A DNA stretch of 64,000 nt from Micromonospora siamensis (GTDB taxonomy: Bacteria; Actinomycetota; Actinomycetes; Mycobacteriales; Micromonosporaceae): assembly GCF_900090305.1 (NCBI RefSeq), contig NZ_LT607751.1:3348001-3412000 (forward strand), in the 5' to 3' direction. Positions 24,545 to 50,033 of this stretch are shown piece by piece. Position 1 is the first letter of the stretch. The number at the start of each line of letters is the position of its first letter. The translations under genes were made by a program, and so were the position numbers. The notes beneath the pieces were generated by a model. That model was not told the DNA's origin and did not search any database. It saw only the letters and a program-made list of their open reading frames with translations.

Positions 24545-24594
24545 CGAGCGTGATACCTGACAGGTATCACTATTCCTCTGAGGTATCACGCTCG
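24545..24594. repeat. Palindromic intergenic element, copy 1
   Basis: Arms CGAGCGTGATACCT (24545-24558) and AGGTATCACGCTCG (24581-24594) are perfectly complementary, 50 bases end to end. Inside is a third copy of the half-site AGGTATCAC (24562-24570), which can pair with the left arm as a 9-bp hairpin with a 3-base loop. The same outer arms occur at 49984-50033. It lies in the 300-base gap between the desaturase and AAA ATPase genes, which otherwise shows only the tandem repeat. Confidence 0.85.
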
Positions 24595-24768
24595 TCGGAG
24601 GTTTCGCTCCCCGCGCCATCACCGTCGGTGACTGTCACCGTGTCGACCGCCGTCCGCCACCTGGCGCCGCTCCCGGTCGGGCTGTCCTTCCGGCTGGCGG
24701 TGGCAGGTGTCGGGGGCGGGTGTCAGACTTGCCCCGGGTCACCACCGTGACGCGAGGAGCTGGTTGGC

Positions 24769-26280
24769 ATGACGCAGCAGGGACACGACCTTCGACCCGA
24801 CGCCGAACGCTTCGAGCTGTTCGGCGCCGAGGTGACGATCCTGGATCCCGTCGCCCTGCTCGCCGAGGCGGGGTCGCACCCGGTGGAGCTCTTCGCCGGC
24901 TGCTTCTTCCCGGCGCCGGTGCGCGAGGTCCGGCTCACGGTCCGGGTCGACGAGACGGCCGGCTCCCCGGTCCACCGCTTCGACGCGGAGGTCCGCGCCG
25001 CCAACAGCCTCGCCGGCGGGCTGCTCGCCCTGGGCGCCGTCGGACCGGTCGGGGTGCTGCTCGCCCGCCGACTCGCCGCCGCCGACCCGGCGGCCGGGCG
25101 GGTGGTGGCCGGCGCCGGCCGGATGGCCGCCGAGGCCACCCGGCGGCTCGGCCTGGTCGTCCCGGCGGCCACCGCGGTCGCCGAGCGCGGGCCCGACCCG
25201 GCTGGCGCGGAGGTGCTGCGTACCGCGGAGGAGCTGGGCCTGCGACCGGAGGTCGACCAGCAGGAGGGCCCGAACGGCGCGCGTACCGCCACCGTCCGGG
25301 CGGCCGTCGCCAGCGACCAGGTCACCCCCGCCCACCTGCGGGCCGCCGTCGGGCTGGTCCTGCAGACGGTACGCGAGCTGGCCGGCGACGACCCGCAGCC
25401 GCGGGTGCTGCGCGGGCGGAGCTACGTGCTGGGCCGGGCGGTGGCGCCGACGGTGTCGGCGAACGCGCCGCGCAGCGAGACGGTGACCCTGGACATGGTG
25501 GGTGGCCTGGACGAGGTGGTCGCCCGGTTCCGGGAGATCGCGGTCTCGTTCCGCCACCCGGCGGTGATGGCTCGCTGGGGCGCCCGCCGGCCGCAGGGCA
25601 TCCTGATGTACGGCCCGCCCGGCACCGGCAAGACCATGCTGGCCCGGGCGCTGGCCAACGAGATCGGCGCCGAGTTCGTCGAGATCCGCACCCCGGAGAT
25701 CCTCGACAAGTATCTCGGCGGCTCGGAACGCAACATCAAGCAGATCTTCCGCGACGCCCGCCACTACCGGGAGCCGACGGTGATGCTCTTCGACGAGTTC
25801 GACAGCATCATCAGCTACGCCGGCGCCGGTGGGGACGCCGCGAGTCAGGCCGTCAACGCGGTCGCCGGGATCTTCAAGCAGGAGATGAACACCCTCATCG
25901 AGGAGAACCCGAACGTCATCGTGGTGGCCACCACCAACTTCCCGCACCGGGTGGACGCCTCGCTGACCCGCTCCGGACGCTTCGACATCAAGGTGGCCAT
26001 CCCGCTGCCCGACGAGGGCGGCCGGGCGGCCATCATCGCCAAGATGATCCGCGAGCTGATCGTCCGGCACGAGCGCGCCGGGTTCCGGATGTTCGGCGAC
26101 GACGTCGACCCGGCCGAGCTGGCCGCCCTCACCCCGGGCCTCACCGGCGCCGACATCCGGGAGATCCTGCGCCGGGTGCAGCTGGCCAAGGCGATGGCCG
26201 AGGCGACCGGCGGTGGACCGGTCGGCCCGATCAGCCAGCACGACCTGCGCGAGGGCGTCGCGGGCCTGCGCCAAGGTTGA
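24769..26280 (+). CDS. AAA-family ATPase
   Basis: 503 residues. The N-terminal 240 are not recognisable. One AAA module follows: Walker A GPPGTGKT (about 285), Walker B VMLFDEFD (about 343), sensor-1 VVATTNFP and the arginine-finger region LTRSGRFD, then a C-terminal helical lid. This is the classic clade that includes FtsH, proteasomal ATPases and katanin-like proteins, but no protease or membrane segment is attached, so it probably remodels a protein partner via the N-terminal domain. GAGGAG precedes ATG 24769. 61 bases upstream of the acyl-CoA dehydrogenase gene. Confidence 0.9.
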   Translation: MTQQGHDLRPDAERFELFGAEVTILDPVALLAEAGSHPVELFAGCFFPAPVREVRLTVRVDETAGSPVHRFDAEVRAANSLAGGLLALGAVGPVGVLLARRLAAADPAAGRVVAGAGRMAAEATRRLGLVVPAATAVAERGPDPAGAEVLRTAEELGLRPEVDQQEGPNGARTATVRAAVASDQVTPAHLRAAVGLVLQTVRELAGDDPQPRVLRGRSYVLGRAVAPTVSANAPRSETVTLDMVGGLDEVVARFREIAVSFRHPAVMARWGARRPQGILMYGPPGTGKTMLARALANEIGAEFVEIRTPEILDKYLGGSERNIKQIFRDARHYREPTVMLFDEFDSIISYAGAGGDAASQAVNAVAGIFKQEMNTLIEENPNVIVVATTNFPHRVDASLTRSGRFDIKVAIPLPDEGGRAAIIAKMIRELIVRHERAGFRMFGDDVDPAELAALTPGLTGADIREILRRVQLAKAMAEATGGGPVGPISQHDLREGVAGLRQG

Positions 26281-26341
26281 GGCGTACGGTCGGGAGGCCG
26301 TCCCGTCCCCGCCGCCCGGGCGGGTGTTGGAGAGGAGACCC

Positions 26342-28156
26342 GTGTCGTCCACCCTGCTGTCCCGCCGTGACCTGCGCTTCCTGCTGCACGACTGGCTCGA
26401 CGTCACCCGCCTCACCGAGCGGCCCCGCTATGCCGAGCACTCCCGGGAGACCTTCGACGACGCCCTGGACCTGGCCGAGCGGGTCGCCACCGCGCACTTC
26501 GCCCCGCACAACCGGGCCGCGGACCTCGCCGAGCCGACCTTCGACGGTCGCCGGGTGCACACCATCCCCGAGGTGCGGGCCGCCCTGGACGCCTTCGCCG
26601 ACACCGGCCTGCTCGCCGCCGCGATGGACCAGCGGGTCGGCGGGATGCAGCTGCCGCAGGTGGTCTCCGCGGCCTGCTTCGCCTGGTTCCAGGCCGCCAA
26701 CGTGGGCACCTCGGCGTACCCCTTCCTGACCCTGGGCAACGCCAACCTGCTGCTCGCCCACGGCAGCGACGAGCAGATCGACACCTGGGTGCGCCCGATG
26801 CTCGAGGGTCGGTTCTTCGGCACCATGTGCCTGTCCGAGCCGCAGGCCGGCAGCTCGCTGGCCGACGTCACCACCCGGGCCGAGCCGCGCGACGACGGGA
26901 CGTACCGGCTCTTCGGCACCAAGATGTGGATCTCGGCGGGGGACCACGAGCTCTCCGAGAACATCGTCCACCTGGTGCTGGCGCGCATCCCCGGAGGTCC
27001 GCCCGGCGTCAAGGGGATCTCGCTGTTCATCGTGCCGAAGGTGCTGCTCGGCCCGGACGGCACGCCCGGCGCCCGCAACGACGTGGTGCTGGTCGGCCTC
27101 AACCACAAGATGGGCTACCGGGGCACCACCAACACGCTGCTGAACTTCGGCGAGGGCGTACACCGGCCGGCGGGTGAGCCCGGCGCGGTCGGCTACCTGG
27201 TCGGCGAGGCGCACCAGGGTCTGGCGCAGATGTTCCACATGATGAACGAGGCACGGATCGGAGTGGGTGCCGGCGCGACCGCGCTGGGCTACACCGGCTA
27301 CCTGAAGTCCCTGGCGTACGCCCGCACGCGCCCGCAGGGCCGTCCGGTCGCCGACAAGGACCCGACCGCCCCGCAGGTGCCGATCATCGCCCACCCCGAC
27401 GTACGCCGGATGCTGCTGGCGCAGAAGAGCTACGTCGAGGGGGCCCTGGCGCTGGTGCTCTACTGCGGACGGCTGCTCGACGAGGAACGATCGGCGCCCA
27501 CTGAGGAGGACCGGCGCCGCGCGCACCTGCTGCTGGACCTGCTCACCCCGATCGCCAAGAGCTGGCCGTCGCAGTGGTGCCTGGCCGCCAACGACCTGGC
27601 CATCCAGGTGCACGGCGGGTACGGCTACACCCGCGACTACGACGTGGAGCAGCACTGGCGGGACAACCGGCTCAACCCGATCCATGAGGGCACCCACGGC
27701 ATCCAGGCCCTCGACCTGCTCGGCCGCAAGGTCACCATGCAGGGCGGGGCCGGCCTGGAGCTGCTGCTGGAGACCGTCCGGGCCACGGTGAACCGGGCCT
27801 GGAAGGCGGACGGCCTCCCGGCTGAGCTGGCCGGGCAGCTCGGCGCGGCGGTCGACCGGATCGCCCTGGTCACCCGGCGGCTGTGGGGCGGCGGGGACCC
27901 GGAGGTCGCCCTGGCCAACGCCTCGGTCTACCTGGAGGCCGTCGGGCACGTGGTGGTCGCCTGGATGTGGCTGGAGCAGCTGCTCGCGGTGGAGGCGCTG
28001 GGCTCACCGGACGGCCCGGAGGGGGACTTCCTGGCCGGGAAGCGGCAGGCGGCGCGGTACTTCTTCCGCTACGAGCTGCCCCGGACCGGCCCGCAGTTCG
28101 ACCTGCTGGAGAGCCTGGACCGGACCACCCTGGACGCCCGGGAGAGCTGGTTGTAG
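26342..28156 (+). CDS. Acyl-CoA dehydrogenase (large, DmdC-like)
   Basis: 604 residues, longer than the usual 380, with a C-terminal extension of the type seen in DmdC and related FadE proteins. MCLSEPQAGSSLADV and TKMWISAGDHE form the FAD and substrate pocket; NPIHEGTHGIQALDLLGRK holds the catalytic Glu. It oxidises an acyl-CoA at C2-C3 and feeds electrons to ETF. GTG 26342 follows GAGGAG; an upstream in-frame stretch overlaps the AAA gene and is not used. Possible cargo is the fatty acids shaped by the nearby desaturase, which is only inference. Confidence 0.93.
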   Translation: MSSTLLSRRDLRFLLHDWLDVTRLTERPRYAEHSRETFDDALDLAERVATAHFAPHNRAADLAEPTFDGRRVHTIPEVRAALDAFADTGLLAAAMDQRVGGMQLPQVVSAACFAWFQAANVGTSAYPFLTLGNANLLLAHGSDEQIDTWVRPMLEGRFFGTMCLSEPQAGSSLADVTTRAEPRDDGTYRLFGTKMWISAGDHELSENIVHLVLARIPGGPPGVKGISLFIVPKVLLGPDGTPGARNDVVLVGLNHKMGYRGTTNTLLNFGEGVHRPAGEPGAVGYLVGEAHQGLAQMFHMMNEARIGVGAGATALGYTGYLKSLAYARTRPQGRPVADKDPTAPQVPIIAHPDVRRMLLAQKSYVEGALALVLYCGRLLDEERSAPTEEDRRRAHLLLDLLTPIAKSWPSQWCLAANDLAIQVHGGYGYTRDYDVEQHWRDNRLNPIHEGTHGIQALDLLGRKVTMQGGAGLELLLETVRATVNRAWKADGLPAELAGQLGAAVDRIALVTRRLWGGGDPEVALANASVYLEAVGHVVVAWMWLEQLLAVEALGSPDGPEGDFLAGKRQAARYFFRYELPRTGPQFDLLESLDRTTLDARESWL

Positions 28157-28160
28157 ACCG

Positions 28161-30758
28161 TCAGCTCAGCAACTCCACGTAGCCGTCGGCGCCGTGCACC
28201 CGGATCCGCTGCCCGTCCCGGATCAGTCGGGTCGCGTCGGCCACCCCGACGACGGCGGGCAGGCCGTACTCCCGGGCGACCACCGCGCCGTGGGTCATCA
28301 GGCCACCCACCTCCGTCACCAGCCCGGCGACCGCGACGAACAGGGGTGACCAGCTCGGGTCGGTGTACGCGGTGACCAGGATGTCGCCGGGCTGGAGGTC
28401 GGCCGCGGCGATGTCCGGTACGACCCGGGCCCGGCCCTCCACCACTCCGGTGGAGACGGGCAGCCCGACCAGCGCGCCGGCCGGCACGTCGTCGCGCCGG
28501 TACGCCCCGTTGAGGCACTCCCCGTCGGAGGTGAGCACCCGGGGCGGGGTGAGCGCCTGGTACGACCGGAACTCCTCGCGGCGCCGGCTGATCAGCCCGC
28601 GATCCACCCGCCCGGTGCGTACGGCGTCGTGCAGCTCGGCGAAGGTGAGGAAGTAGCTGTCCTCCCCGCTGGCGAGCACGCCGTCCCGGACGAGGTGGGC
28701 GACCTCCGCCAGCAGGGCCTGCTTGTAGACCAGGTAGCGGCTGACGATGGCGTACTTCGGATACTCCCGGTAACCGATGAAGGTGCGGACCCGGTCGATC
28801 ATCCGCTTGGTCTCGTCGGCCTTGCGCTGTCCGTCCGGCAGGGCCCGCAGCCGGGCCAGCACGTCCCGTTCCTTCTCCGCCGCAGCCCGTCGGCCCTGGT
28901 CGAAGCGCCGCTCCCGTTCGCCGGGCGGGAAGTTCCGGACGTCGTCCAACAGCAGGGGAAGCAGCGAGCCGGGGCGTTCGCTCCACCGCGGCCTGGTGAT
29001 GTCGATCTCGCCGACGCAGCGCATGCCGTACCGGTCGAGCCAGCCGCGGATGGCGTCCCGGGCCCGCTCCCCGCCGGGCAGGGTGGGCAGCTCGTCCAGG
29101 AAGCCGTCGTCGGTGGCCTTCTCCAGGAAGGCCACCACCGCCGGATGGGGGCGGACGACGTCGGCGACGTCCAGCAGGGCCAGCCCCATCTCCGAGGTGA
29201 TGTTGCCGGGCGCGGAGAGGGTGAGGGTGTCGGCGGCGTTCTTCTCGCCCAGCCACTCCCGCAGGTTCTCGTTGAGCCACCAGGAGGCGTCCATCCCCGC
29301 CATGAGCACCTGCATGCTCAGCGGATCGCGCAGCAGCCGCTTGTGCTCCTCGAAGGCGGCCAGCAGGAAGTCGAACCGCGCCGGCCCGGACGTCGCCGCG
29401 ATGTCGCGGCGCAGGGCGGCGAGGGCCGTCTCGCTGCGGTCGACCAGCTCGGCGACGATCGCCGGATCGGCCTCGACCGGCGCGGGCGGACCGGCCGGCG
29501 GCGGTGGGGGCGTGGGCTGGTCGGTCAGCTCGGGCAGGAACTCGCCGCGGTCGACGACGGTCTCCAGCGCGTCCCGCACCAGCGGGTCGCCCCGGCCCAC
29601 CAGTTCCAGCAGGCCGGCGCGGCGGGCCGGCGACGCCAGGGTCGCGGTGACGTCGACGAAGAGCCGTCCACCGGCGGCGTGCATCGGCGCGATCGCGGTC
29701 AGCTGCCACATCGACCAGCCCAGGGGCTTCATCGCGTCGGTCATCATCTGCTGGTGTCCCACGGAGACGTACACGTGGTTCGCCCCGTCGCCGGCCTCGG
29801 GGACCGGGAAGAGCGTGGTGACCGGCCGGCTCTGCACCACGTGGAACTCGTCGTCGACCAGGCACCACTCGATGTCCTGTGGGCGGCCGAAGTGGGCCTC
29901 GATCCGCCGGCCGAGCCGCACCAGCCGCAGCACCTGCTCGTCGGTCAGCGCCGGTTCCCGCTGCTGCCGCGGCTCGATCGCCGCCCGCGTGGTGCCGCCG
30001 CCGGTTCGGGGGCGCACGGCGAGCCGCTTGGCGGCGATCGAACGCTCGACGATCCGGCCGTCGCGTACCCGGTAGATGTCCGGGTCGACCAGGCCCGCGA
30101 CCAGCGCCTCGCCGAGGCCGAAGCCGGCCTCCACCGAGGCGACCTTCCGGTCCGAGGTGACCGGGTCGGCGGTGAACAGGACGCCCGCCACCCGCGGGAA
30201 GAGCATCTTCTGCACGACCACGGCCATCCGCACCGCCCGGTGGTCGATGCCGTTGCGCTGCCGGTAGGCCACCGCGCGTTCGGTGAAGAGCGAGGCCCAG
30301 CAGCGACGGACGTCCCGCAGGACAGCCGCCGTCCCGACGACGTTGAGGTAGGTGTCCTGCTGGCCGGCGAAGGAGGCCGTGGGCAGGTCCTCCGCCGTCG
30401 CGCTGGACCGCACGGCGTACGCGTCGTGCTCGCCCAGCTCGCCCAGCGCCCGGGTGACCGCCGCCGCCAGGTCCTCGGGGAGGGCGCTCTCCTCGACGTC
30501 CCGCCGGATCTCCGCCGCGAGCGTGCGGGCCGCCCTCCGGTCGTCCGGGTCGAGGCGGGACAGCTGGTCGAGCCGCTCCTCGACCGACGGAACGCCGGCC
30601 AGCATCCGCCCGAAGGCGTGCGTCGTCACGCAGAAACCGGGCGGCACCGGGAGACCGTCGATCCGCGACAGCGCCCCCAGGTGCGCGCCCTTGCCGCCGA
30701 CCAGCGTCAGCTGCGTCTCGTCGACCTCGTGCAGCCCGCACACGTACCGCTGGTTCAT
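28161..30758 (-). CDS. rph: Rifampin phosphotransferase (RPH)
   Basis: 865 residues, almost exactly the length of Listeria RPH (867). Domain order is ATP-grasp (1-320, with GGKGAHLGAL and AYAVRSSATAEDL), rifampin-binding domain (about 330-750) and swivelling phosphohistidine domain (GGLMTHGAVVAREYG, His823). The enzyme uses ATP to phosphorylate rifamycins at C21 and gives AMP and phosphate, protecting RNA polymerase. It is separated from PEP synthase by this layout and the motif context. ATG 30758 follows GGAGG. A 25-base palindrome matching the rifamycin-associated element lies 130 bases upstream, supporting induction by rifamycins. Confidence 0.93.
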   Translation of the reverse strand: MNQRYVCGLHEVDETQLTLVGGKGAHLGALSRIDGLPVPPGFCVTTHAFGRMLAGVPSVEERLDQLSRLDPDDRRAARTLAAEIRRDVEESALPEDLAAAVTRALGELGEHDAYAVRSSATAEDLPTASFAGQQDTYLNVVGTAAVLRDVRRCWASLFTERAVAYRQRNGIDHRAVRMAVVVQKMLFPRVAGVLFTADPVTSDRKVASVEAGFGLGEALVAGLVDPDIYRVRDGRIVERSIAAKRLAVRPRTGGGTTRAAIEPRQQREPALTDEQVLRLVRLGRRIEAHFGRPQDIEWCLVDDEFHVVQSRPVTTLFPVPEAGDGANHVYVSVGHQQMMTDAMKPLGWSMWQLTAIAPMHAAGGRLFVDVTATLASPARRAGLLELVGRGDPLVRDALETVVDRGEFLPELTDQPTPPPPPAGPPAPVEADPAIVAELVDRSETALAALRRDIAATSGPARFDFLLAAFEEHKRLLRDPLSMQVLMAGMDASWWLNENLREWLGEKNAADTLTLSAPGNITSEMGLALLDVADVVRPHPAVVAFLEKATDDGFLDELPTLPGGERARDAIRGWLDRYGMRCVGEIDITRPRWSERPGSLLPLLLDDVRNFPPGERERRFDQGRRAAAEKERDVLARLRALPDGQRKADETKRMIDRVRTFIGYREYPKYAIVSRYLVYKQALLAEVAHLVRDGVLASGEDSYFLTFAELHDAVRTGRVDRGLISRRREEFRSYQALTPPRVLTSDGECLNGAYRRDDVPAGALVGLPVSTGVVEGRARVVPDIAAADLQPGDILVTAYTDPSWSPLFVAVAGLVTEVGGLMTHGAVVAREYGLPAVVGVADATRLIRDGQRIRVHGADGYVELLS

Positions 30759-30887
30759 CCCCGTGCCTCCGATGCCGTCAGCGGTTCAACGACGCTGCGC
30801 CCGCGGTGGTCGGGCCCCCGCGTGCGTACGTCGTCCCCCCGTTCACCCCGCCCGTTTCCCGGTCCGGCGGACGATTCTGCGCCCGGA

Positions 30888-30912
30888 CCCGGGTCTTGCG
30901 GCAAGACCCGGG
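30888..30912. promoter_or_regulatory. Rifamycin-associated element (RAE)-like palindrome
   Basis: CCCGGGTCTTGC-G-GCAAGACCCGGG is a perfect palindrome of 12-base arms around one G. Its core CTTGCGGCAAG equals the core of the element known upstream of rifamycin-inactivating genes in actinomycetes. The remaining 474-base gap (30759-31232) holds no convincing gene. Confidence 0.85.
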
Positions 30913-31232
30913 GTGCGATATATGTTCAAGTGGGAGGAGTTGCCGCGCCCTCGTGGCGCGCGCCCCGGCCTGACCGGGCCGTCCTACCGCCTCTCGTCGA
31001 CGGCGCGCACGGTGTGCCGGAAGCCCACCATCTCGTGCCCGACCACCTCCACGATCGCCGCCTGGGGATGAGCGAGAGCACCAGCAGCGGCACGGGAGCG
31101 ACTGAATCCGTTGCCGGGGAGAAGAACCACCCGGAGAATCGCGACGGCGGGTGTCCGATCCGGGGGGAGGCGGTCGTAGCAGCGGTGAACGGCGGCCCGA
31201 CCGGGCGGCCGACGGTGCACAGGAGATGATCG

Positions 31233-31568
31233 GTGATGGCGCAGTACCTGATGTCCGTGCTCCACGACTCGACCGACCTGGCCACCGCCGAGGAGATGGC
31301 GGCGATCGACGTCTTCAACGCGAGGCTCCGGGCCGACGGCCACTGGGTGTTCGCCGGTGGCCTGACCTCGCCCCACACGGCCACCGTCGTCGACGGCCGG
31401 CAGGGGGAACCGGTCTTCACCGACGGCCCCTACGTCGAGTCGAAGGAGCACGTCATCGGCTTCTGGATCGTCGACGCGCCCCACCTCGACGTGGCGCTGC
31501 GGCTCGCCGCCCAGGGGTCGAGGAGCTGCAACCGGCGGATCGAGCTGCGGCCGTTCCTCGGCGAATGA
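31233..31568 (+). CDS. DGPF/YCII-domain protein
   Basis: 111 residues. The name-giving motif is present as TDGPYVESKEHVIGFWIVD. DGPF proteins are small dimeric proteins of unknown activity, typically encoded next to ECF42 sigma factors. GTG 31233 and ATG 31236 are in the same frame; AGGAG at 31221-31225 gives 7 bases to GTG and 10 to ATG. The stop overlaps the sigma gene start by 4 bases (ATGA). Confidence 0.92.
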   Translation: MMAQYLMSVLHDSTDLATAEEMAAIDVFNARLRADGHWVFAGGLTSPHTATVVDGRQGEPVFTDGPYVESKEHVIGFWIVDAPHLDVALRLAAQGSRSCNRRIELRPFLGE

Positions 31569-32785
31569 CCGACGCCGGTGCGGTGATCACCCGGGTCCAC
31601 CGCGAGGAGTGGGCCCGGCTGGTCGCCACCCTCGCCCGCCGCCTCGGGGACCTCGACGTCGCCGAGGAGATGGCCGCCGAGGCGTTCGCCTCGGCGGTGC
31701 GGCGCTGGCCGGTCGACGGCGTCCCGCCCAATCCCGGCGCGTGGCTCACCACCACCGCGTACCGCAGGGCCGTCGACCGGCTCCGGCGCGAGGCCCGGCG
31801 CGAGGAGAAGCACCGGGAGGCGTTGATGCTGTTCCACCCCGCCGAACCGCTCGGGGCCGTCGACGACGACCGGCTGCGCCTGATCTTCACCTGCTGCCAT
31901 CCCGCCCTGTCCATGGAGGCCCGGGTCGCGCTGACCCTGCGGATGGTCGGCGGGCTCACGGTGGGGGAGATCGCCCGCGCGTTCCTGGTCGAGGAGGCCA
32001 CCATGGGCCGCCGGATCACCCGGGCGAAGGCGAAGATCAGAGCCGCCCGGATCCCGTACGGTGTGCCGTTGCGGGAGGATCTGCCGGCCCGGGTCACCGG
32101 CGTGCTCGCCGTCCTCTACCTGATTTTCAACGAGGGCTACCTGGCCTCGGACCCCGGGCGGGGACCGATCCGCGCCGAGCTGACCGCCGAGGCGATCCGG
32201 CTGACCCGGCTGGTCCGGGCCCTGCTGCCGGCCGACGGCGAAACCGCCGGGCTGCTGGCGCTGATGCTGCTGACCGAGGCCCGCCGCGAGGCGCGGGTGT
32301 CGGCCGACGGCGAACTCGTCACGCTGGACGAGCAGGACCGCGGGCTCTGGGACCGCCGGCGGATCGCCGAGGGGCACGCGCTGGTCCGCGCGCTCGTCGC
32401 CGCCGGCCGGCCGCCCGGCCGCTACCAGATCCTCGCCGCCGTCAACGCCGTCCACACCGACGCCGCCGACGTCCGGCAGACCGACTGGTCGCAGGTGGTC
32501 GTCCTCTACGACCAGCTCACCCGCCTCGACCCCTCGCCGATCGTACGGCTGAACCGGGCGATCGCGGTCGCCGAACTCGACGGCCCGCAGGTCGCCCTGG
32601 CGCAGGTCGACGGGCTGCCGCTGGAGGGCTACCGCGCCTTCCACGCCACCCGCGCCGAACTGCTGCGCCGGCTGGGCCGCGTCGAGGAGTCCCGGGCGGC
32701 GTACGACCGGGCGGTCGGGTCGGCCGGGAACGCCGCCGAGACGGCGTACCTGGTCCGTCGCCGCGACCAGTTGGCTGGCCCGTGA
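31565..32785 (+). CDS. ECF sigma factor, ECF42-type with C-terminal extension
   Basis: 406 residues. Sigma region 2 (about 15-80, EEMAAEAFASAVRRWP), region 4 (about 105-160, EARVALTLRMVGGLTVGEIARAFLVEEATMGRRITRAKAKI) and a long helical C-terminal domain that includes a TPR-like part (RLNRAIAVAELDGP). This is the ECF42 layout, which needs no anti-sigma factor and is genetically tied to DGPF proteins. ATG 31565 overlaps the DGPF stop, so both are made from one message. Likely controls its own operon. Confidence 0.92.
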   Translation: MTDAGAVITRVHREEWARLVATLARRLGDLDVAEEMAAEAFASAVRRWPVDGVPPNPGAWLTTTAYRRAVDRLRREARREEKHREALMLFHPAEPLGAVDDDRLRLIFTCCHPALSMEARVALTLRMVGGLTVGEIARAFLVEEATMGRRITRAKAKIRAARIPYGVPLREDLPARVTGVLAVLYLIFNEGYLASDPGRGPIRAELTAEAIRLTRLVRALLPADGETAGLLALMLLTEARREARVSADGELVTLDEQDRGLWDRRRIAEGHALVRALVAAGRPPGRYQILAAVNAVHTDAADVRQTDWSQVVVLYDQLTRLDPSPIVRLNRAIAVAELDGPQVALAQVDGLPLEGYRAFHATRAELLRRLGRVEESRAAYDRAVGSAGNAAETAYLVRRRDQLAGP

Positions 32786-32797
32786 AAGGCGTCGCGT

Positions 32798-33397
32798 TCA
32801 GCGGTTCGGTGCGCGCAGGCCGTCGACGAGGATCGACAGCAGACGCGGCCCCCGGGCGTCGAGCTCGGCGTCGTCCAGGCGGGTCAGCCAACTGATGAGA
32901 ACGATCACGTCGCGGGCGTCGGCGTCGGCGCGGATGCTGCCGGCGGAGCGGCCGGCGGCCAGCAGCAGTTCGATCGACTCGCCGATCGGGCCGAGGCTGT
33001 GGGCGGCGAGGTCACGCCAGGTCGCCGCCTCGACGGCGGCGAAGACGTCGCGCTTGACCCTGGCGTAGGCGGCCACCCGGTCGAACCAGGCCGCCAACGC
33101 CTGCAGCGGCGGGCGGGCCGCCAGCAGTCGCGGTGCCTCGGCGACCAGCTCGTCGACCTCCTGGCGGTACACCTCGGCGAGCAGGTCCTCCCGGGTGGGA
33201 AAGTGCCGGTACAAGGTGCCCTGTCCGATTCCGCAGGCTTTCGCGACGGCGTTTAGCTTCAGCTCGCCCGGCTCGTGCACGAGTTCGCGGGCCGCGTGGA
33301 GGATCCGTTCGCGGTTGCGCCGCGCGTCGGCGCGTGGCGCGGTGCCGCTGGCGGAAGCGGACACGTGTCCGCTAGAGTGGTCGAAGTAACCGGACAT
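32798..33397 (-). CDS. TetR-family repressor
   Basis: 199 residues. RERILHAARELV and GIGQGTLYRHFPTREDLLAEVY form the TetR DNA-binding domain; the rest is an all-helical ligand and dimer domain of the SbtR-like group. It faces the SDR gene at 33424. ATG 33397 has no ribosome site but TAGACT lies 6 bases before it; GTG 33364 is an alternative in-frame start. Two operator-like sites overlap this start, so it should repress itself and the SDR gene. Confidence 0.92.
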   Translation of the reverse strand: MSGYFDHSSGHVSASASGTAPRADARRNRERILHAARELVHEPGELKLNAVAKACGIGQGTLYRHFPTREDLLAEVYRQEVDELVAEAPRLLAARPPLQALAAWFDRVAAYARVKRDVFAAVEAATWRDLAAHSLGPIGESIELLLAAGRSAGSIRADADARDVIVLISWLTRLDDAELDARGPRLLSILVDGLRAPNR

Positions 33398-33403: not shown

Positions 33404-33423
33404 AGTCTAGCTTGAGGAGCCTC

Positions 33424-34164: not shown

Positions 34165-34181
34165 CGGCCCCCGCCCCTCGG

Positions 34182-42707: not shown

Positions 42708-42999
42708 CAGGCCCTCCCCGTGTGACCGCCCGCCATCGCGCCCGCGAAGGGAACACCGGCCGGAGGTCGAGGTCCATCGACTTCCTGTCCGGGCGCCCGA
42801 GACGCCCGGCCACTGACCGGCAGCCTACAAAGCTTCGGCGCTGACCGTGGACCCGTCGGGGTGGTGGCCCGGCCGGCGACGGGCCGGGAACCACCGGTTG
42901 GCCGTCGCCGAGCCGGGGCCCTCCCGGCGCGGGCCGCTGGTCTATCCTGCTGTCGCCGTCGTGAGTGGACACGCGGGCGGCGAACGGGGGAGCGGGACA

Positions 43000-43674
43000 T
43001 TGAGCACGTCGATCACGGCGGGGGACACCCTGCCGCTGCGGCTGTGGGCGACGAGGGTGCTGCTCGGCGTCGGCGTGGTGCTGACGCTGTGCGCGGGGAA
43101 CACCTGGCTGTTCGGTGCGATCGGCGTGGCGCTGGCGATCGGCGCGGTCGCGTACCTCGCCCAGCTCAAGGTGGTCGCCGCGGGCCCGCCGGACCGTGCC
43201 GCCTCGGTCGCCACGGTGGCGCTCTTCGTCGGGCTCGCGCTCGCGCTGGCCGCCGGCGCCGGCCTGCTGGCCCGCTGGCAGTTCGGGTACGAGTACGCCG
43301 CCCGCTACGGCACCCGCACCACGGTGACGCTCTCCGACCGGTGCACCGTCCACGAGAAGGTCTACCGGGGCAGCATCCACGCCTCCGACCACACCGAGTG
43401 CGAAGGGTCGACGTGGACGGCCGACGGGCGGCGGCACACCGGTGACGCCGTGCTGCGCTGGGACTCCTTCGACGGGGCGAAGCCCCCACGGCAGGTCGAG
43501 GCGAACGCGGTGGGCGACGAGGCGTACAGCGTCATCCCCGACCGGGAACGGTCCTCGGCCGCCCTCTGGGGTGGCGTCCCGCTCTGGGTGCTCTGGGCCG
43601 GCCTGGCCGGCGCCGGCGTCGGCCTGGTCGTGCTCGGCGCCCGGGGCCGGCTGGGCCTGCGCGACCTGGACTGA
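43000..43674 (+). CDS. Membrane protein with extracellular loop, unknown function
   Basis: 224 residues. Helices at about 14-50 (two) and 68-88, an external domain with two Cys (SDRCTVHEKVYRG, DHTECEGSTW) and a last helix at about 190-212. No family recognised. TTG 43000 follows GGGGGAG; GTG 42961 is an alternative. TATCCT at 42943-42948 is a good -10 element. Convergent with the HD-domain gene. Confidence 0.75.
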   Translation: MSTSITAGDTLPLRLWATRVLLGVGVVLTLCAGNTWLFGAIGVALAIGAVAYLAQLKVVAAGPPDRAASVATVALFVGLALALAAGAGLLARWQFGYEYAARYGTRTTVTLSDRCTVHEKVYRGSIHASDHTECEGSTWTADGRRHTGDAVLRWDSFDGAKPPRQVEANAVGDEAYSVIPDRERSSAALWGGVPLWVLWAGLAGAGVGLVVLGARGRLGLRDLD

Positions 43675-43709
43675 ACCGGCCGCGGGCGGTGCCGCCCGGA
43701 ACAGGCCCG

Positions 43710-44324
43710 TCAGCTGATCCGGTGCCCGTGGCGGCGCGCCAGGCCGGTCAGGTCCGGCTCGCCGAACTTCTCCACCAGCGCCGCGAAGCCGGCGACCTTG
43801 TCCGCGCCGAACCGGCTCACCTTCGCCGCGTACGACGCGCAGGTGAGGAAGGCGGGCGGCGTCGACTTGCTGTGGAACTTGTCGGCGTACATCACCAGCT
43901 GCTCCTCCTCGCTGTCGGCGGTGTAGTCGTCCACGGGCAGCGGCAGGCCCTGGCGTCGCACGTCCTCGCGGGTCAGTCCGACCCCGGTGTGGTGGGAACA
44001 GAACCGGCCCAGCTCGTCGGGCAGCCCGAGGTCCCGCAGCAGCGCGTGCCCCAGCACGCCGTGCCGCAGGTAGTTCGCGTGGTCCAGGCGCCCGGTCGAG
44101 TCGTAGAGGCGGTAGACGCCGATGTCGTGCAGCAGGGCGCCGGCGCGTACCAGCTCGACGTCCAGCGGTGCGCCGTGCCGGTCGAGCAGCTGCTCGGCGA
44201 CCTCGCAGACGATCCGGCAGTGGGTGTGGACCAGCTCGAACGCCTCCTCGCTCGGCGCGAACCGCTCGTGCAACGCCCGGATCTGCTCGTCGGTCGGAAG
44301 CACCGACGTGCGTTCGATCGTCAC
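43710..44324 (-). CDS. HD-domain phosphohydrolase-like protein
   Basis: 204 residues. The metal-binding HD pattern is H36 region VHTHCRIV, LLHDIGVYRLYD and FCSHHTGVG. HD proteins hydrolyse nucleotides or phosphate esters; this short form has no partner domain. GTG 44324 start without strong ribosome site. 77 bases downstream of the fadD-like gene, same direction. Confidence 0.85.
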   Translation of the reverse strand: MTIERTSVLPTDEQIRALHERFAPSEEAFELVHTHCRIVCEVAEQLLDRHGAPLDVELVRAGALLHDIGVYRLYDSTGRLDHANYLRHGVLGHALLRDLGLPDELGRFCSHHTGVGLTREDVRRQGLPLPVDDYTADSEEEQLVMYADKFHSKSTPPAFLTCASYAAKVSRFGADKVAGFAALVEKFGEPDLTGLARRHGHRIS

Positions 44325-44401
44325 CTGCCGTCACCCGTCCCGCGTCGCCGTCACCGCCGGCAACACCATACGGGTCGGGCCGCCGGCCGGCAGCGGGCCG
44401 G

Positions 44402-46084
44402 TCAGTCGCCGGCGAGGAGGCGGTCGCGGACCTCGCGGCGCAGGACCTTGCCGATCTGGGAGCGGGGCAGCTCCTCCACCGGCACCACCCGGCGGGGCAC
44501 CTTGTAGCCGGCCAGGTGCTGGCGGCAGGCGGCCCGGATCTCCTCCGGCTCGCCCGCGGCGTCGGGGTCCAGCACCACGGCGGCCACCACTTCTTCGGCC
44601 CCGTCCGGGCCGGGCATCCCCACCGCGGCGGCGTCGCGTACGCCGGGCAGCCGGCGCAGCGCCTCCTCCACCTCCGACGGGTAGACGTTGAACCCGCCGG
44701 TGATGATCATTTCCTTGATCCGGTCGACCACGCTGACGAAGCCGTCGTCGTCCATCACCACCACGTCGCCGGTACGCAGCCACCCGTCGGCCAACAGCAC
44801 CTGCGCGGTCTCCTCGGTGCGACGCCAGTAGCCGCCGAACACCTGCGGTCCGCGGACCAGCAGTTCGCCGGGCTCACCGGTGGGCCGGTCCCGGGACGGG
44901 TCCTCCGGGTCGACGATCCGCACGTCGGTGGAGGGGAACGGGATCCCGACCGTGCCGGGGCGGCGGGCGGGGGAGACCGGGTTGCCCAGCGCGATCGGGG
45001 ACGCCTCGGTCATCCCGTACCCCTCGACCAGCAGCCCACCGGTCACCGACTCCCACAACTCGACCGTGGCCGGAGGCAGGGACATCGCACCGGAGAGGGC
45101 GTACCGGGCCGAGGTGAGGTCGACGCCCCGCTCCCGGGCCGCCGTGGCCAGCCGCTCGTAGATCGGCGGCACCGCGGGCAGGAACGTCGGCGGCCGGCGG
45201 CCGACGGCGTCGAGCACCTGGTCGAGGTCGAAGCGGGGGAAGAGCACCATGGTCGCGCCGATGCCCACCGAGAAGGTGAGGCAGAGGGTGAGCCCGTACG
45301 CGTGGAACAGCGGCAGCACCGCGTACACGGTCTCCTCGCCGTCGCGCAGGCCCGGCACCCAGGCGCGGCCCTGCGCGGCGTTGGCCCGCAGGTTGCGGTG
45401 GCTGAGCACGGCGCCCTTCGGGGTGCCGGTGGTGCCGCCGGTGTACTGGAGCAGCGCGGTGTCCCCGGCGCCCGGCGCCGGGTGGTCGGCGGCCAGCGGG
45501 GTGGCCGCCGCGAGCAGCTCCGCCCAGGACAGCGCGCCGGGGGCCGGCGCGGTCATCGCCGCCCGGGCGGCGCGGGCCTTCGCCAGCGGCAGCCGCAACG
45601 CCCAGCGCTTGCGCCGGGGCAGCGCCCGGGTCAGGTCGACCGCGATCACCGTCCGCACCTCGGCCCGGCCGGTCACCGCCGGGGCGATCTTGTCCCACAC
45701 CACGGCGACCCGCGCGCCGTGGTCGGCGAGCTGGTGTTCCAGCTCCTGCGGGGTGTAGAGCGGGTTGTGCTCGACCACCACCGCGCCCAGCCGCAGCACG
45801 GCGTAGAAGGCGACCACGTGCTGGGGGCAGTTCGGCAGCACCAGCGCCACCCGGTCGCCGCGACCGACGCCGAGGCGGCGCAGCGCCTCCGCGGCGCGGG
45901 ACACCTGCCCGGCCAGCTCGGCGTACGTGGTGGTGGCGCCGAAGAAGTCCAGCGCCACCCGGGGGCCGAAGCGGTGTGCGGCGTCGGTCAGCAGGTCGAC
46001 CAGCGAGCCGTCCGGCAGGTCGATCTCCGCTGGTACGCCGGGGGCGTAGCTGCGCAGCCAGGGCCTCTGGTCGGTACGGTCCAT
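44402..46084 (-). CDS. Fatty acyl-CoA ligase (FadD-like)
   Basis: 560 residues of the AMP-binding superfamily. LLQYTGGTTGTPKGAVLSH (P loop), VEGYGMTEASP, GWLRTGDVV and the C-terminal GKVLRREVRD Lys region are all present. It makes acyl-AMP and then acyl-CoA from a fatty acid, ATP and CoA; medium or long chain is likely. GAGGAGG precedes ATG 46084. A palindromic site in its promoter suggests repression by a TetR-type fatty acid regulator. Confidence 0.93.
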   Translation of the reverse strand: MDRTDQRPWLRSYAPGVPAEIDLPDGSLVDLLTDAAHRFGPRVALDFFGATTTYAELAGQVSRAAEALRRLGVGRGDRVALVLPNCPQHVVAFYAVLRLGAVVVEHNPLYTPQELEHQLADHGARVAVVWDKIAPAVTGRAEVRTVIAVDLTRALPRRKRWALRLPLAKARAARAAMTAPAPGALSWAELLAAATPLAADHPAPGAGDTALLQYTGGTTGTPKGAVLSHRNLRANAAQGRAWVPGLRDGEETVYAVLPLFHAYGLTLCLTFSVGIGATMVLFPRFDLDQVLDAVGRRPPTFLPAVPPIYERLATAARERGVDLTSARYALSGAMSLPPATVELWESVTGGLLVEGYGMTEASPIALGNPVSPARRPGTVGIPFPSTDVRIVDPEDPSRDRPTGEPGELLVRGPQVFGGYWRRTEETAQVLLADGWLRTGDVVVMDDDGFVSVVDRIKEMIITGGFNVYPSEVEEALRRLPGVRDAAAVGMPGPDGAEEVVAAVVLDPDAAGEPEEIRAACRQHLAGYKVPRRVVPVEELPRSQIGKVLRREVRDRLLAGD

Positions 46085-46122
46085 CGCCGCCTCCTCGCTC
46101 ACCGCCAACGCCGCCCAGATTA

Positions 46123-46155
46123 ACCTACGCGTTGGTAACCTACGGGAGCGTAGGT
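46123..46155. promoter_or_regulatory. Operator-like repeats upstream of the fadD-like gene
   Basis: ACCTACGCGTTGGT (46123-46136) is a 14-base palindrome with one mismatch pair. It is followed by ACCTACG (46138-46144) and its inverted copy CGTAGGT (46149-46155). The three ACCTACG half-sites are typical of a TetR-family operator. Confidence 0.6.
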
Positions 46156-46172
46156 GGGCGTGGTGGTCGGGA

Positions 46173-46340
46173 TCAGCGCCGGGAACGCACCGACTGGCGA
46201 CCCTTGACGAAGGCCAGGACGATCACCGCGACCAGGGCGATCAAACCGATGATCACCAGCCAGCGGGCCGCCTCCAGCAGCAACCCGAGCAGGATGAGCG
46301 CGCCGCCGACGACGCCGACGACCCAGAGCAGGGCCCGCAT
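46173..46340 (-). CDS. Two-helix small membrane protein
   Basis: 55 residues, hydrophobic except for the basic tail (KGRQSVRSRR). GGAGG precedes ATG 46340. Similar small proteins of unknown role are common in actinomycetes. Confidence 0.75.
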   Translation of the reverse strand: MRALLWVVGVVGGALILLGLLLEAARWLVIIGLIALVAVIVLAFVKGRQSVRSRR

Positions 46341-46424
46341 GTTCGCCTCCCGTGACCGACGTGTCCCCGGCGGGGACACCCGGCCCCGCCTTCCCGCTCC
46401 GGCCGCGCCCATGCCGGCCGCCGG

Positions 46425-47150
46425 TCAGCGGCGGGCGACGTACACCGTGTTGGCCGACTCGCGGCGCTGCAACGGGTTGGGGAAGCGGACGACGTGGGCC
46501 AGCGAGGTCGGGAACACCTCGGTCAGGATCCGCTGGAACTCCCGGTCCGGCGGGTCGTTCGACCAGAGCGCGAAGACCCCCTCCGGGCGCAGGTGGCGGG
46601 CCATCCGGTGCAGCCCCTCCACGGTGTAGAAACCGGCGTGCGACGGATGCAGCACGTGCCGGGGGGAGTGGTCCACGTCGAGCAGGATCGCGTGGAAGAG
46701 CCGGTCCGGGTCGTCCGGGTCGAAGCCCGCCCCGCTCTCCACCGCCGCGAAGAAGTCGGACCGCACGAACCGGGTACGCGGGTCCGCCGCCAGCCCCTCG
46801 GCGAAGGGCAGCAGGCCCCGCCGGTGCCAGTCGATGACGTCCTCGATCGCCTCGACCACCACCATCGAGCGGACCCGGGCCTCCTCCAGCACCGTACGGG
46901 CGGTGTAGCCGAGGCCCAGGCCGCCGACCACCACGTCCAGACCGTCACCGGTCAGCGGCGCGAGCCCCAGCCGGGCCAGCTCGATCTCCGCCACCGGGAA
47001 CAGGCTCGACATCAGGAACTCGTCGTCGAGCTTGACCTCGTACACGTCCAGGTCGAGCGACGGGTCCCGGCGCCGGCGCAGGCTGATCTCCCCGATCGGG
47101 GTCTCCCGCCAGGCCAGTTCTTCGAATCGGATGCCCACGCGGTCCCTCAT
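46425..47150 (-). CDS. Spermidine synthase-like protein
   Basis: 241 residues. VVVGGLGLGYTARTVLEEARVRSMVVVEAIEDVIDWHRRGL is the SAM-type Rossmann part; LFHAILLDVDHSPRHVLHPSHAGFYT is typical of the actinobacterial spermidine synthase-like branch. Polyamine synthase activity is unproven for this branch, which lacks an obvious DxxD substrate site. ATG 47150 has weak support from GGAA; downstream GTG starts are possible. Confidence 0.8.
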   Translation of the reverse strand: MRDRVGIRFEELAWRETPIGEISLRRRRDPSLDLDVYEVKLDDEFLMSSLFPVAEIELARLGLAPLTGDGLDVVVGGLGLGYTARTVLEEARVRSMVVVEAIEDVIDWHRRGLLPFAEGLAADPRTRFVRSDFFAAVESGAGFDPDDPDRLFHAILLDVDHSPRHVLHPSHAGFYTVEGLHRMARHLRPEGVFALWSNDPPDREFQRILTEVFPTSLAHVVRFPNPLQRRESANTVYVARR

Positions 47151-47268
47151 TTCCGGCCGGTTCCGTCGTCGGATGCTACCGGCCCGACCATCCCGCCCGG
47201 GCCGGCATGCGGCCACACGACCTGGACGGATGCCGCCCGGGCCATCCCCGGCCGGGTACGCCCGCCGA

Positions 47269-47649
47269 TCACCACCGCCAGAGCGCGGCCCCCGCCACCC
47301 CGGCCAACGCGACGGCCCCGAACACCGACGCCGGCCCGGAGGCGCCCCGGCAGCGCAGGGTGACCGCCGCCGTGGCGGTGAGCAGCAGGGCAACCGGTCC
47401 GGTCACGACCAGCCAGGGCTCCCAGCCGGCCGCCTCCCCGCTGCCCGAACCCACCGGCCCGGCGGTCAGCAACCACCCGCCGAAGAGCGTGCCCGCCCAG
47501 CTCACCGGGGTCAGCGCCGAGGTGGCGGCGGCCAGCGCCGCGAGCGTCGGCGCCGGCCGAGAGGAGTCGGGGCCACGAGTGGCGTCGGCGATCGGGCCGC
47601 GGCGGGGCACGGCGGGTCGGAGTCCCGGTCGGCGGGCGGCGGTGATCAC
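47269..47649 (-). CDS. Membrane protein of unknown function
   Basis: 126 residues with three hydrophobic segments (about 38-62, 76-98, 105-124). GTG 47649 has no Shine-Dalgarno sequence but TAGCGT lies 6 bases upstream. Divergent from eccB. No family recognised. Confidence 0.6.
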   Translation of the reverse strand: MITAARRPGLRPAVPRRGPIADATRGPDSSRPAPTLAALAAATSALTPVSWAGTLFGGWLLTAGPVGSGSGEAAGWEPWLVVTGPVALLLTATAAVTLRCRGASGPASVFGAVALAGVAGAALWRW

Positions 47650-47887
47650 GCGGCGACGCTACGCCCCGGCCGGCCCGGTCCGGATCAGCCGTGGGGTCCG
47701 GCCGGGTGGACCGGCGTGCCGGCTGCCTCGCCGCTTCGTCCGGCCGCCCCGACCGGCGGGTGGGTCGTGTTCGGCCCGAGGGGCTTCGGGCGGGCCGGGT
47801 GGCGGCGGCTCGGCGGACACGCAGGGTCCCCGGGATGTCGACGGAACGCTTATCCTGTGCGCCGACCGTATCGCCGGAAGGGACCGC

Positions 47888-49276
47888 ATGCCGTCGCGGC
47901 AGGACCAGCTGCACTCGTACCAGTTCACCGTCCAGCGGGCGGTCGCCGCCCTGGTGATGCGGGAGACGGACCCGGCCAGGTCGCCGTTTCGCCGGCTCGC
48001 CGGCGCCGGGCTGGCCAGCGTCCTGGTCGCCGCGATCGCCCTGGGCGGCTCGACACTGTACGGACTCTTCGCCAGCGGTGGCACCAAGTGGCGGGACTCG
48101 GACGCGGTGATCGTGGAGAAGGAGTCCGGCGCCCGGTTCGTCTACCGGCAGGACAAGCTGCACCCGGTGCTCAACTACGCGTCGGCGCTGCTGATCATCG
48201 GCGCGGAGCAGCCGAGGACCGTGCTGGTCTCCCGCCGGTCGATCGAGGGGGTGCCGCGCGGGCTGCCGCTCGGCATCGCCGACGCCCCCGACTCACTCCC
48301 CGCCCCCGGACGGCTCGCCACCAGCGGCTGGACGGTCTGCTCGGTGCCCGGCGCCGACCCGGACCGCCCGGGTGCCCGCTCGGCGCTGCTGATCGGCCGG
48401 GACGTCACCGGAGGCCGACCGCTGCGCGAGGACGGGCTGCTGGTGCGGCACCCCGACGGCACCCTGCACCTGGTCTGGCACCAGCGGCGACACCTGATCC
48501 GCGACCCCGACCGGGTGCTCGCCGCGCTGGCCGCAACCCGGGAACGGGCCGTCCCGGTGGCGCCCGCCCTGCTCAACACCCTCACCGCGGGCGTCGACCT
48601 GGCCCCGCTGGCCGTACCAGGGCTGGGTGGGCCGTCCCGCAGGGTGCCGGGGGCCACCGTCGGCACCGTCTACCTGGTCCGCAACACCGGCGGTGGCCGC
48701 CAGTACGCGGTGGTCGAGCGGGAGGGCCTGGCCGGGATCACCGAGCTCCAGGCGAGCCTGCTGCTCGCCCGTACCGGCCAGGGTGCGCCCGAGCAGCTCA
48801 GCCTCGGTCGCTTCGCCGAACTGCCCAAACTGCGCGACCGGGTGCCCCGGGGCGCCGCCGCCCCGCCGTCCTCACCACCCCGGCTGGCCGGCACGGAGGG
48901 GGGCAGCGTCTGCGCCCGTACCGGCGACGACGGTGGCGCCCGGGAGTTGCGGCTGGGCGGCTCGCTGCCGGATCTCACCGGCGCCGCGCGGACCACGCCG
49001 TCGGCCGGTGGTCCACCGCTGGCCGACCACGTCCTGGTGGAGCCGGGCCGGGGCGCGGTGGTGGAGAGCGTCGCCGCGCCGGGCGCCACCGGGGGCGCCG
49101 TCTCCGTGGTGACCGATCTCGGGCGCCGGTACGTCCTGGCCGACCGGGCCGTGCTCGGCATGCTCGGCTACCGCGACGTGCGGCCGGTACGCCTGCCCGC
49201 CGGGCTGGTCAGCCTGGTGCCGGCCGGTAGTCCGCTCGACCCGGAGGCGGCCCGCGCGGTCGCCGCACCCGGCTGA
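47888..49276 (+). CDS. eccB: EccB-family type VII secretion protein
   Basis: 462 residues, near the family norm. MPSRQDQLHSYQFTVQRAVAALV at the N-terminus is the EccB hallmark, followed by one membrane helix (about 40-62) and a large periplasmic domain with the repeats typical of the family (YASALLIIG, VSRRSIEGVPRG, RYVLADRAVLGMLGY). EccB is a core part of the ESX membrane complex. No eccC, eccD, eccE, mycP or esx genes adjoin it, so the gene is an orphan in this window. GGAAGGGA precedes ATG 47888. Confidence 0.93.
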   Translation: MPSRQDQLHSYQFTVQRAVAALVMRETDPARSPFRRLAGAGLASVLVAAIALGGSTLYGLFASGGTKWRDSDAVIVEKESGARFVYRQDKLHPVLNYASALLIIGAEQPRTVLVSRRSIEGVPRGLPLGIADAPDSLPAPGRLATSGWTVCSVPGADPDRPGARSALLIGRDVTGGRPLREDGLLVRHPDGTLHLVWHQRRHLIRDPDRVLAALAATRERAVPVAPALLNTLTAGVDLAPLAVPGLGGPSRRVPGATVGTVYLVRNTGGGRQYAVVEREGLAGITELQASLLLARTGQGAPEQLSLGRFAELPKLRDRVPRGAAAPPSSPPRLAGTEGGSVCARTGDDGGARELRLGGSLPDLTGAARTTPSAGGPPLADHVLVEPGRGAVVESVAAPGATGGAVSVVTDLGRRYVLADRAVLGMLGYRDVRPVRLPAGLVSLVPAGSPLDPEAARAVAAPG

Positions 49277-49280
49277 CGGG

Positions 49281-49886
49281 TCAGTCGGCCGGGCGGCGCA
49301 GGGCGGTGACCGCGAAGGTGGCCTCGTCGTGCCAGGGGCGCAGGTCCCAGGTGGCGAAGCGGTGTTCGAGGCGCAGGCCGACCGCGGCGGTGTCGGCGTC
49401 GAAGTCGGGCAGCCGGTAGCCGCGGTCGGTGCCGAAGCCGACCACCAGCAGCCCGTCGGGGCGCAGGTGGGCGGCGATCCGGCCGAGCACCTGCCGCTCG
49501 GTGCCCGGCGCCACGAAGGCCATCACGTTGCCCGCGCAGACCGCCGCGTCGAACGGCTCGGCCTCGCCGTCCGCCGGCAGGTCCAGCTCGGCCAGGTCAC
49601 CGACCAGCCAGCGCGGCCCGGGATGGTCGGCGCGGGCGGCCTCGACCAGAGCGGGATCGGCGTCCACGCCGACGACGGTGTGGCCCCGCTGGGCCAGTGC
49701 CGCGCCCACTCGACCCGTGCCGCAGCCGGCGTCGAGGATCCGCGAACCCGGGGCCACCATCGCGTCGATGAGTCGCCCCTCACCGGCCAGGTCCACCCCT
49801 TCGGCGGCCAGCCGGCGGAACCGGTCGATGTACCACTGCGAGTGCTCGGGACCGGTCTCGGTCACCCAGCGGGTCGGGTTCGCCAT
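49281..49886 (-). CDS. SAM-dependent methyltransferase
   Basis: 201 residues, class I fold. ILDAGCGTGRVGAALAQRGHTVVGVD is motif I, FDAAVCAGNVMAFV motif II region. Substrate unknown. ATG 49886 has no Shine-Dalgarno sequence but TACCGT is 6 bases upstream; an extended frame reaching back into the palindromic element is not used. Confidence 0.88.
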   Translation of the reverse strand: MANPTRWVTETGPEHSQWYIDRFRRLAAEGVDLAGEGRLIDAMVAPGSRILDAGCGTGRVGAALAQRGHTVVGVDADPALVEAARADHPGPRWLVGDLAELDLPADGEAEPFDAAVCAGNVMAFVAPGTERQVLGRIAAHLRPDGLLVVGFGTDRGYRLPDFDADTAAVGLRLEHRFATWDLRPWHDEATFAVTALRRPAD

Positions 49887-49983
49887 GCCGCCACGGTAAC
49901 CGCCCCGCCGGCCGGGCCCACGGCGGAGCCGGGCCTCCGGGTCGGAGTCGGCGTGCCGGACCGTTGGGGCCATGGGAGTCGTC

Positions 49984-50033
49984 CGAGCGTGATACCTCAG
50001 AGTCATATCGATGACTCTGAGGTATCACGCTCG
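49984..50033. repeat. Palindromic intergenic element, copy 2
   Basis: Perfect 23-base arms (49984-50006 and 50011-50033) with a 4-base loop ATCG. The outer 14 bases, CGAGCGTGATACCT and its complement, are identical to copy 1 at 24545. It lies 34 bases after the stop of the sugar permease gene and could terminate that operon. Confidence 0.9.

Follow-up and report, generated by a model that had tools for sequence, protein, structure and literature searches.

The window analysed here, a stretch of 64,000 nucleotides, belongs to the 6.25-Mb chromosome of Micromonospora siamensis and contains two copies of a palindromic element (Table 1). The initial annotation had described both as exactly 50 bp long, with identical 14-bp outer arms and different interiors, a short way behind a gene. 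This description was accurate: lengths, outer arms and coordinates were reproduced, the arms of copy 2 are perfect whereas those of copy 1 are imperfect inside, and our own gene caller placed each copy behind a stop codon at the distance given in the table. Copy 1 is followed in turn by an AAA ATPase gene, and copy 2 adjoins a methyltransferase gene as well as the ABC permease gene. For copy 2, taken as 84 bp, the predicted single-strand DNA fold has an energy of -31.3 kcal/mol (z -8.9).

The start of the methyltransferase gene is uncertain, as in-frame upstream start codons enter the left arm of copy 2 (window 49973-50006). A tandem repeat of a 17-bp unit (acccggacccacgcctg) follows directly upon the desaturase gene, ahead of copy 1 (window 24470-24503), and a palindrome resembling a regulator operator, TCTGAATCGATACAGTTCTGAATCGATTCAGA, lies between two plus-strand genes (window 63044-63075).

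Table 1. Positions in the window of the two palindromic elements, their parts and the genes that they follow
Feature	Positions	Strand	Remark
Fatty acid desaturase gene (PF00487)	23299..24468	+	copy 1 is 76 bp behind its stop
Copy 1, left flank	24528..24544	.	17 bp; weak mirror-symmetric family consensus
Copy 1, palindromic core	24545..24594	.	14-bp outer arms perfect, imperfect inside
Copy 1, outer 14-bp arms	24545-24558 / 24581-24594
Copy 1, outer left half-site	24553..24557	+	ATACC
Copy 1, inner left half-site	24563..24567	-	ATACC
Copy 1, inner right half-site	24572..24576	+	ATTCC
Copy 1, outer right half-site	24582..24586	-	ATACC
Copy 1, right flank	24595..24611	.	17 bp
Copy 2, left flank	49967..49983	.	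17 bp
Copy 2, palindromic core	49984..50033	.	perfect 23-bp arms around 4 nt
Copy 2, outer 14-bp arms	49984-49997 / 50020-50033
Copy 2, outer left half-site	49992..49996	+	ATACC
Copy 2, inner left half-site	50002..50006	-	ATGAC
Copy 2, inner right half-site	50011..50015	+	ATGAC
Copy 2, outer right half-site	50021..50025	-	ATACC
Copy 2, right flank	50034..50050	.	17 bp
ABC transporter permease gene (PF00528)	50068..50937	-	copy 2 is 34 bp behind its stop

Anatomy and distribution of the family

Two copies in one window had been taken to imply many in the genome, and many were found. The 14-base arm, with at most one mismatch, occurs 34+31 times in the whole genome versus 0+0 for a reversed control pattern, and GATACC-N18..30-GGTATC is present at 31 places, whereas its control gave 0. 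Single arms with three or fewer mismatches are about as frequent as chance would give (7 observed, 5.4 expected in shuffles), but exact paired arms would rarely arise in this way. A covariance model, which was built from 39 copies and rewards pairing, located 47 sites genome-wide (94 matches on the two strands). The weakest strand match of these sites has E=7.8e-10, and scoring 150 of the 1720 first-look candidates gave no other match with E up to 1; the count of 47 is thus a lower bound.

The length of the core is nearly fixed: 50 bp exactly in 37 of the first 39 copies of this genome and in 129 of 132 non-redundant copies from a scan permitting 48-52 bp. Duplicate copies were removed by sequence, and cores of 49 or 51 bp were left out (2 of 39 in the early set and 2 of 47 in the later set of this genome). 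With arm positions counted inwards from 0 to 24, A8, T9, C12, G18, A21 and T22 are conserved at 98-100% over 167 unique cores. These letters form four 5-bp half-sites, ATNMC, whose orientation alternates and whose centres are spaced by 10, 9 and 10 bp, about one helical turn. Five words (ATACC, ATGCC, ATTCC, ATCCC and ATGAC) cover 99% of the outer and 97% of the inner half-sites in the 167 cores, part of which came from scans requiring the motif; in the 45 cores of this genome the same words cover 97% and 98%, respectively. At the centre, 115 of the 167 cores carry the dinucleotide AA/TT, and self-complementary dinucleotides are avoided (23 observed versus 72 expected). Outside the core, a weak mirror-symmetric consensus was seen at positions -17 to -7. 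Another genome, G259, has two intergenic regions that each contain a pair of elements, about 145-190 bp from one another and differing in their half-site words, ATGCC and ATCCC (L258:2808-3046; L263:2934-3128).

Positions 19-20 behave differently in this genome, where they are matched below expectation (29/90 versus 41.9 expected; same word in 5/45). A general preference for mismatched words at this place was considered and rejected, 31/68 being matched in other Micromonospora with 26.3 expected. As the preference is real here and absent in the other species, we read it as lineage history.

The covariance model matched the element in 105 of 160 Micromonospora genomes and left 55 without a match under strict filters, with 28 candidates scored per genome. 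In a sample of the family, 48 of 200 genomes and 10 of 44 genera were positive, own genus included, one of the ten genera only weakly (E 0.004). Because the filters were strict, these genus and family counts are lower bounds. Copies from other genera differ greatly in their arms but still have a core of 50 bp, and a 9-bp-arm pattern was found in none of 24 genomes of other families. One locus set of 76 stretches had been chosen by complementary 9-mers; 47 of these were Micromonospora and the other 29 were left out. Another scan required palindromy and the half-site letters. We conclude that the family is genuine, that it is widespread and that its structure is constrained.

A plasmid or phage home was considered and set aside, as the 84-bp copy 2 had no match in the plasmid and phage collections; a scan of viral contigs with the neighbouring desaturase likewise returned nothing. 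In the accessible parts of the open-licence literature searched, including PMC3733652, PMC12306157, PMC1590033, PMC5765111, PMC13155455 and PMC1525189, no description of the element was found. Separately, the Bacteriovoracales MAG BWSM_117 contains 11 palindromes of the form AAAAGTGCGTGATACCTTTT...AAAAGGTATCACGCACTTTT with variable interior (L104, L112, L113, L118, L141, L146, L156, L163, L173 and L176); the GCGTGATACC common to both families may be due to chance.

Arm covariation and the age of the sites

Seventy-five cores from six genera align gap-free, and their arms diverge yet remain complementary. In this set both sides change in 18 of 23 pairs, two-sided cells number 228 versus 69 in shuffles, and none of 500 shuffles attained the covariation score of 0.402 (0.131 in shuffles); slid controls gave 0.096 at most. 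When letters were shuffled within groups, excess matching was observed at positions 0, 2-7, 9-11 and 13-17 (z 3.2 to 12.8; position 1, z 1.9); it was absent at positions 19, 20 and 23 and at flank positions -40 to -2.

The least biased sets are the copies of this genome and those of G184, of which 20 were located by a 24-bp flank alone so as to avoid selecting for pairing. The core register in G184 was picked by best pairing; 19 of the 20 copies fell at one offset, and L278, off by one, was left out. Arm positions 0-7 of these 19 copies are matched in 119 of 152 cells versus 81.6 expected (z 9.0). The 45 cores of this genome gave z 3.7 at positions 0-7, 5.2 at 10-11, 3.3 at 13-17 and -3.0 at 19-20. 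Among nine groups of orthologous sites, two-sided Watson-Crick exchanges were present in six (at 3, 5, 5, 1, 1 and 6 positions) and absent from three (L053, L094 and L100).

The comparison with the sister species M. mirobrigensis (DSM 44830; G035) demonstrates that the sites are old. This species has 23 sites, 20 of which are orthologous to sites of M. siamensis. Over the 20 pairs, mean identity falls from 0.907 in the core to 0.747 over the adjoining 17 bp and 0.653 over the 60 bp beyond, as obtained from global alignments, in which unrelated DNA would score above zero. Some sites are also common to more distant species. Nevertheless, 27 of the 47 sites of this genome were not matched to a sister-species site. 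At 12 of these 27, the corresponding G035 region is without the element (the region being matched on both sides at 10 and on one side at 2), which indicates that single sites are dispensable. Among the 12 is L039, to which a site of M. acroterricola (L174) corresponds, suggesting loss.

Other palindromes were encountered in the two genomes. A second family, AT-richer and of the form GTTGATCATGAAGTTAGC...GCTAACTTCATGATCAAC with variable spacer, is present in both (L061:5896-5968; L203:9696-9756; L205:10930-10998; L208:12349-12418; L213:10651-10717), and its L203 copy occupies the position at which M. siamensis has a main-family element (L058). A third, around GAAGATGCTGCCTCG / CGAGGC...AACTTC, also occurs in both species (L055:3709-3764; L051:5121-5179; L200:6772-6852; L201:15636-15674), and a fourth type, TTAAGAAGGGGCCCCTTCTTAA-like, was found in M. 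mirobrigensis (L201:12092-12142; L203:615-668; L205:568-623).

If the element acts at the DNA level, as argued below, the covariation means either that the DNA folds back on itself or that mutation copies one arm into the other. Mutational arm-to-arm copying is a serious rival source of the covariation: in quasipalindrome correction, replication template switching keeps the arms of a palindrome matched. The repeat might then be neutral or under weak selection, its covariation reflecting mutation and not function. The distribution of the signal, strongest mid-arm and absent at tip positions 19-20, fits such a process. So do the two-sided changes, which affect 15 pair positions in 19 sister pairs where 2.9 would be expected if the sides changed independently (the 51-bp pair L046/L181 was left out, and 5 of 7 Watson-Crick pair-to-pair exchanges come from the single pair L056/L199). 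However, one-sided changes are common in the same pairs (41), mismatches at 19-20 are kept in many of them, the half-sites are near-invariant, the length is fixed, and the flanks are conserved without covariation. We therefore consider template switching an improbable explanation of the family as a whole.

Gene ends, transcription and mobility

Genes around the elements were predicted with a codon-usage script written for the analysis. Of 182 copies, 175 had two predicted neighbours and the remaining 7 were left out of the orientation counts: 82 copies lie between convergent genes, 79 between tandem genes and 14 between divergent genes, versus 77, 204 and 111 for comparison gaps of at least 84 bp, element gaps included. 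Behind at least one gene stand 161 of the 175, and in tandem cases the element is closer to the upstream 3' end in 45 of 58. Along the chromosome, 117 sites pooled from five single-contig genomes (47/47, 28/29, 21/~24, 12/21 and 9/~21 of their sites being listed) fall into the quarters from dnaA to the terminus as 22, 46, 36 and 13. The depletion of the last quarter (13/117, p=2.5e-4 pooled) was tested post hoc, after the gaps had been seen, and only G119 is significant alone; it may be explained by core-gene density. The 14 largest clusters among 725 neighbour proteins, inspected without a family search, represent mainly orthologous loci plus ABC ATPases and revealed no recurrent associated gene.

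A location downstream of genes, often of two convergent ones, would also suit an RNA hairpin at mRNA 3' ends, whether as a bidirectional terminator, an RNase III substrate or a stabiliser, with complementarity selected in the RNA. Stable predicted RNA folds (z -5.0 for copy 1 and -8.6 for copy 2), the two-sided arm changes and the frequent T further behind the core (50% at +7, 45% at +9 and 59% at +10) are in line with this explanation, and the initial annotation had called the element terminator-like and proposed a check of strand asymmetry. A hairpin acting in mRNA would be expected to tolerate G.U better than A.C on the transcribed strand. No such asymmetry of mismatches was seen: on that strand of 79 tandem copies, G.U pairs number 45 and A.C pairs 43 (p=0.92), and an early hint of G.U excess in a smaller set (37 versus 24) disappeared with more copies. 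Directly behind the stem, T amounts to 31, 22, 12, 8 and 12% at +1 to +5 (78 half-elements), and in G184 this stretch is A-rich. Hairpins as strong as those of control 3' ends already lie between stop codon and element (medians -23.8 versus -22.3 kcal/mol, 45 versus 68 segments, p=0.36), and in G184 the element occurs in either orientation relative to transcription (6 and 3 tandem cases). As G.U and A.C are equal and no T-run stands behind the stem, an RNA terminator is unlikely; together with the scarcity of T at +3 to +5, the prior hairpins and the unfixed G184 orientation, this favours a DNA-level element, and we give the RNA hairpin only a small chance. Intrinsic (Rho-independent) terminators resemble the element as hairpin-forming sequences behind genes; unlike them, it has no T-run at the stem, a conserved internal sequence and other hairpins ahead of it. 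A known RNA family was also discarded as a candidate, Rfam giving no match at gathering score in the window; at six element loci all Rfam hairpin matches were sub-threshold (best, mir-192, 38.8 of 54 bits).

As for the suggestion of a REP/MITE-like mobile palindrome, the part describing a dispersed, extragenic, many-copy family behind genes stands, whereas a link to RAYT transposases and current mobility are not supported. A mobile element of this kind would be moved by a transposase elsewhere in the lineage. In favour of it, dispersed copies are similar, those of G184 have about 35 bp of flank in common, 27 of the 47 sites are without a sister match and the sister counterpart of L058 carries an unrelated palindrome in place of the element. 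From the similarity of the copies and the unmatched sites, it follows that spread by copying must have occurred in the past. However, a search for Y1 (RAYT/IS200) transposases found none in this genome and some in 45 of the 160 genomes of the genus, with the element in 28 of 45 Y1-positive and 77 of 115 Y1-negative genomes (Fisher p=0.58); a RAYT/REP origin was thus rejected. No transposase was noticed among the 14 largest neighbour clusters, 20 of 23 sister copies are orthologous, the M. acroterricola counterpart of L039 suggests loss, and no target duplication was seen by eye at four empty sites, sister intergenic DNA being too diverged for exact junctions. We regard a mobile element as unlikely.

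According to the available parts of PMC3733652 and PMC1525189, REPs, or GTAG-tagged repeats with RAYT transposases, are short extragenic palindromes in many copies. The element shares these traits and, as an extragenic palindrome, sits mostly in convergent or same-direction gaps (82 + 79 of 175), as they do (PMC3733652, PMC1525189, same parts). It differs in its symmetric, near-fixed 50-bp core, in arms that change compensatorily, in the many sites kept between species, and in having neither Y1 here nor a GTAG tag in columns up to 80 bp outside 39 cores. CGTC-tagged repeats, palindromic repeats without a dedicated transposase in the part of PMC3733652 available, are alike in being palindromic with no evident transposase; the element, however, has no CGTC in its flank and end columns and has near-invariant internal half-sites. 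As Y1 is absent or unrelated, no transposase was noticed in the largest neighbour clusters and most sister-species sites are shared, we do not file the family as REP/RAYT.

A putative protein-bound chromosomal site

Integrase attP sites are likewise imperfect 50-bp palindromes with a non-palindromic central dinucleotide, and the length, the dyad and the AA/TT centre would suit crossover sites of a serine-type recombinase, an explanation that we hold very improbable given tens of resident copies per chromosome and the complementary change of otherwise free arm letters, which it does not predict.

With its near-fixed length and jointly changing arms, the family resembles a long-established chromosomal site rather than a repeat that has jumped in recent times, and a protein-bound site is the best fit to the four phased half-sites, the near-fixed length and the conserved, non-covarying flanks. 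The element is best read as an old DNA-level dyad site at gene 3' ends, probably bound by a putative multimeric protein. For the fuller statement, that these are old, mostly vertically inherited chromosomal DNA sites of the Micromonosporaceae, bound by such a protein and palindromic for reasons that lie in the DNA, we see the chances as evenly balanced. The four ATNMC half-sites would lie on one helix face and be bound by a putative dimeric or tetrameric protein, and the palindromy would matter not in mRNA but in the DNA, which could form a cruciform or a single-strand hairpin. Against the protein-bound site stand the lack of a recurrent gene in the neighbour clusters inspected, the predominance of one-sided over two-sided sister changes, the missing covariation at positions 19-20, the 55 genomes of the genus with no match, the 12 sites without the element in the sister species, and the possibility that the arms covary through copying from one to the other instead of selection.

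What the complex might do is a matter of conjecture; it could serve chromosome organisation or insulation where transcription ends, with possible parallels in the REP/BIME clusters that bind gyrase or in nucleoid-occlusion sites. BIME clusters of REPs are likewise palindromic and stand at gene 3' ends, places at which supercoils accumulate; unlike them, the element occurs in single copies, with another sequence and in another phylum. Noc or SlmA nucleoid-occlusion sites are tens of palindromic sites over the chromosome, scarce near the terminus. The element is similarly spread and, going by a pooled, post hoc test, may be similarly scarce there, but the Noc and SlmA sites are much shorter and are not tied to gene 3' ends. 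We tentatively propose, as a possibility clearly less likely than the protein-bound site itself, a chromosome-organising or insulating system throughout the Micromonosporaceae, in which tens of dyad sites at transcription ends and away from the terminus would be read by a putative multimeric protein through the four ATNMC half-sites, with DNA fold-back and compensatory arms.

Dispersed palindromes in bacteria are mostly classed as REPs or terminators. In this family, structure can be told apart from mobility by the near-fixed length, the covariation, the near-invariant half-sites and the retention at orthologous positions, which point towards a role in the DNA itself and a putative protein partner; a site so defined makes the putative binding protein directly fishable.
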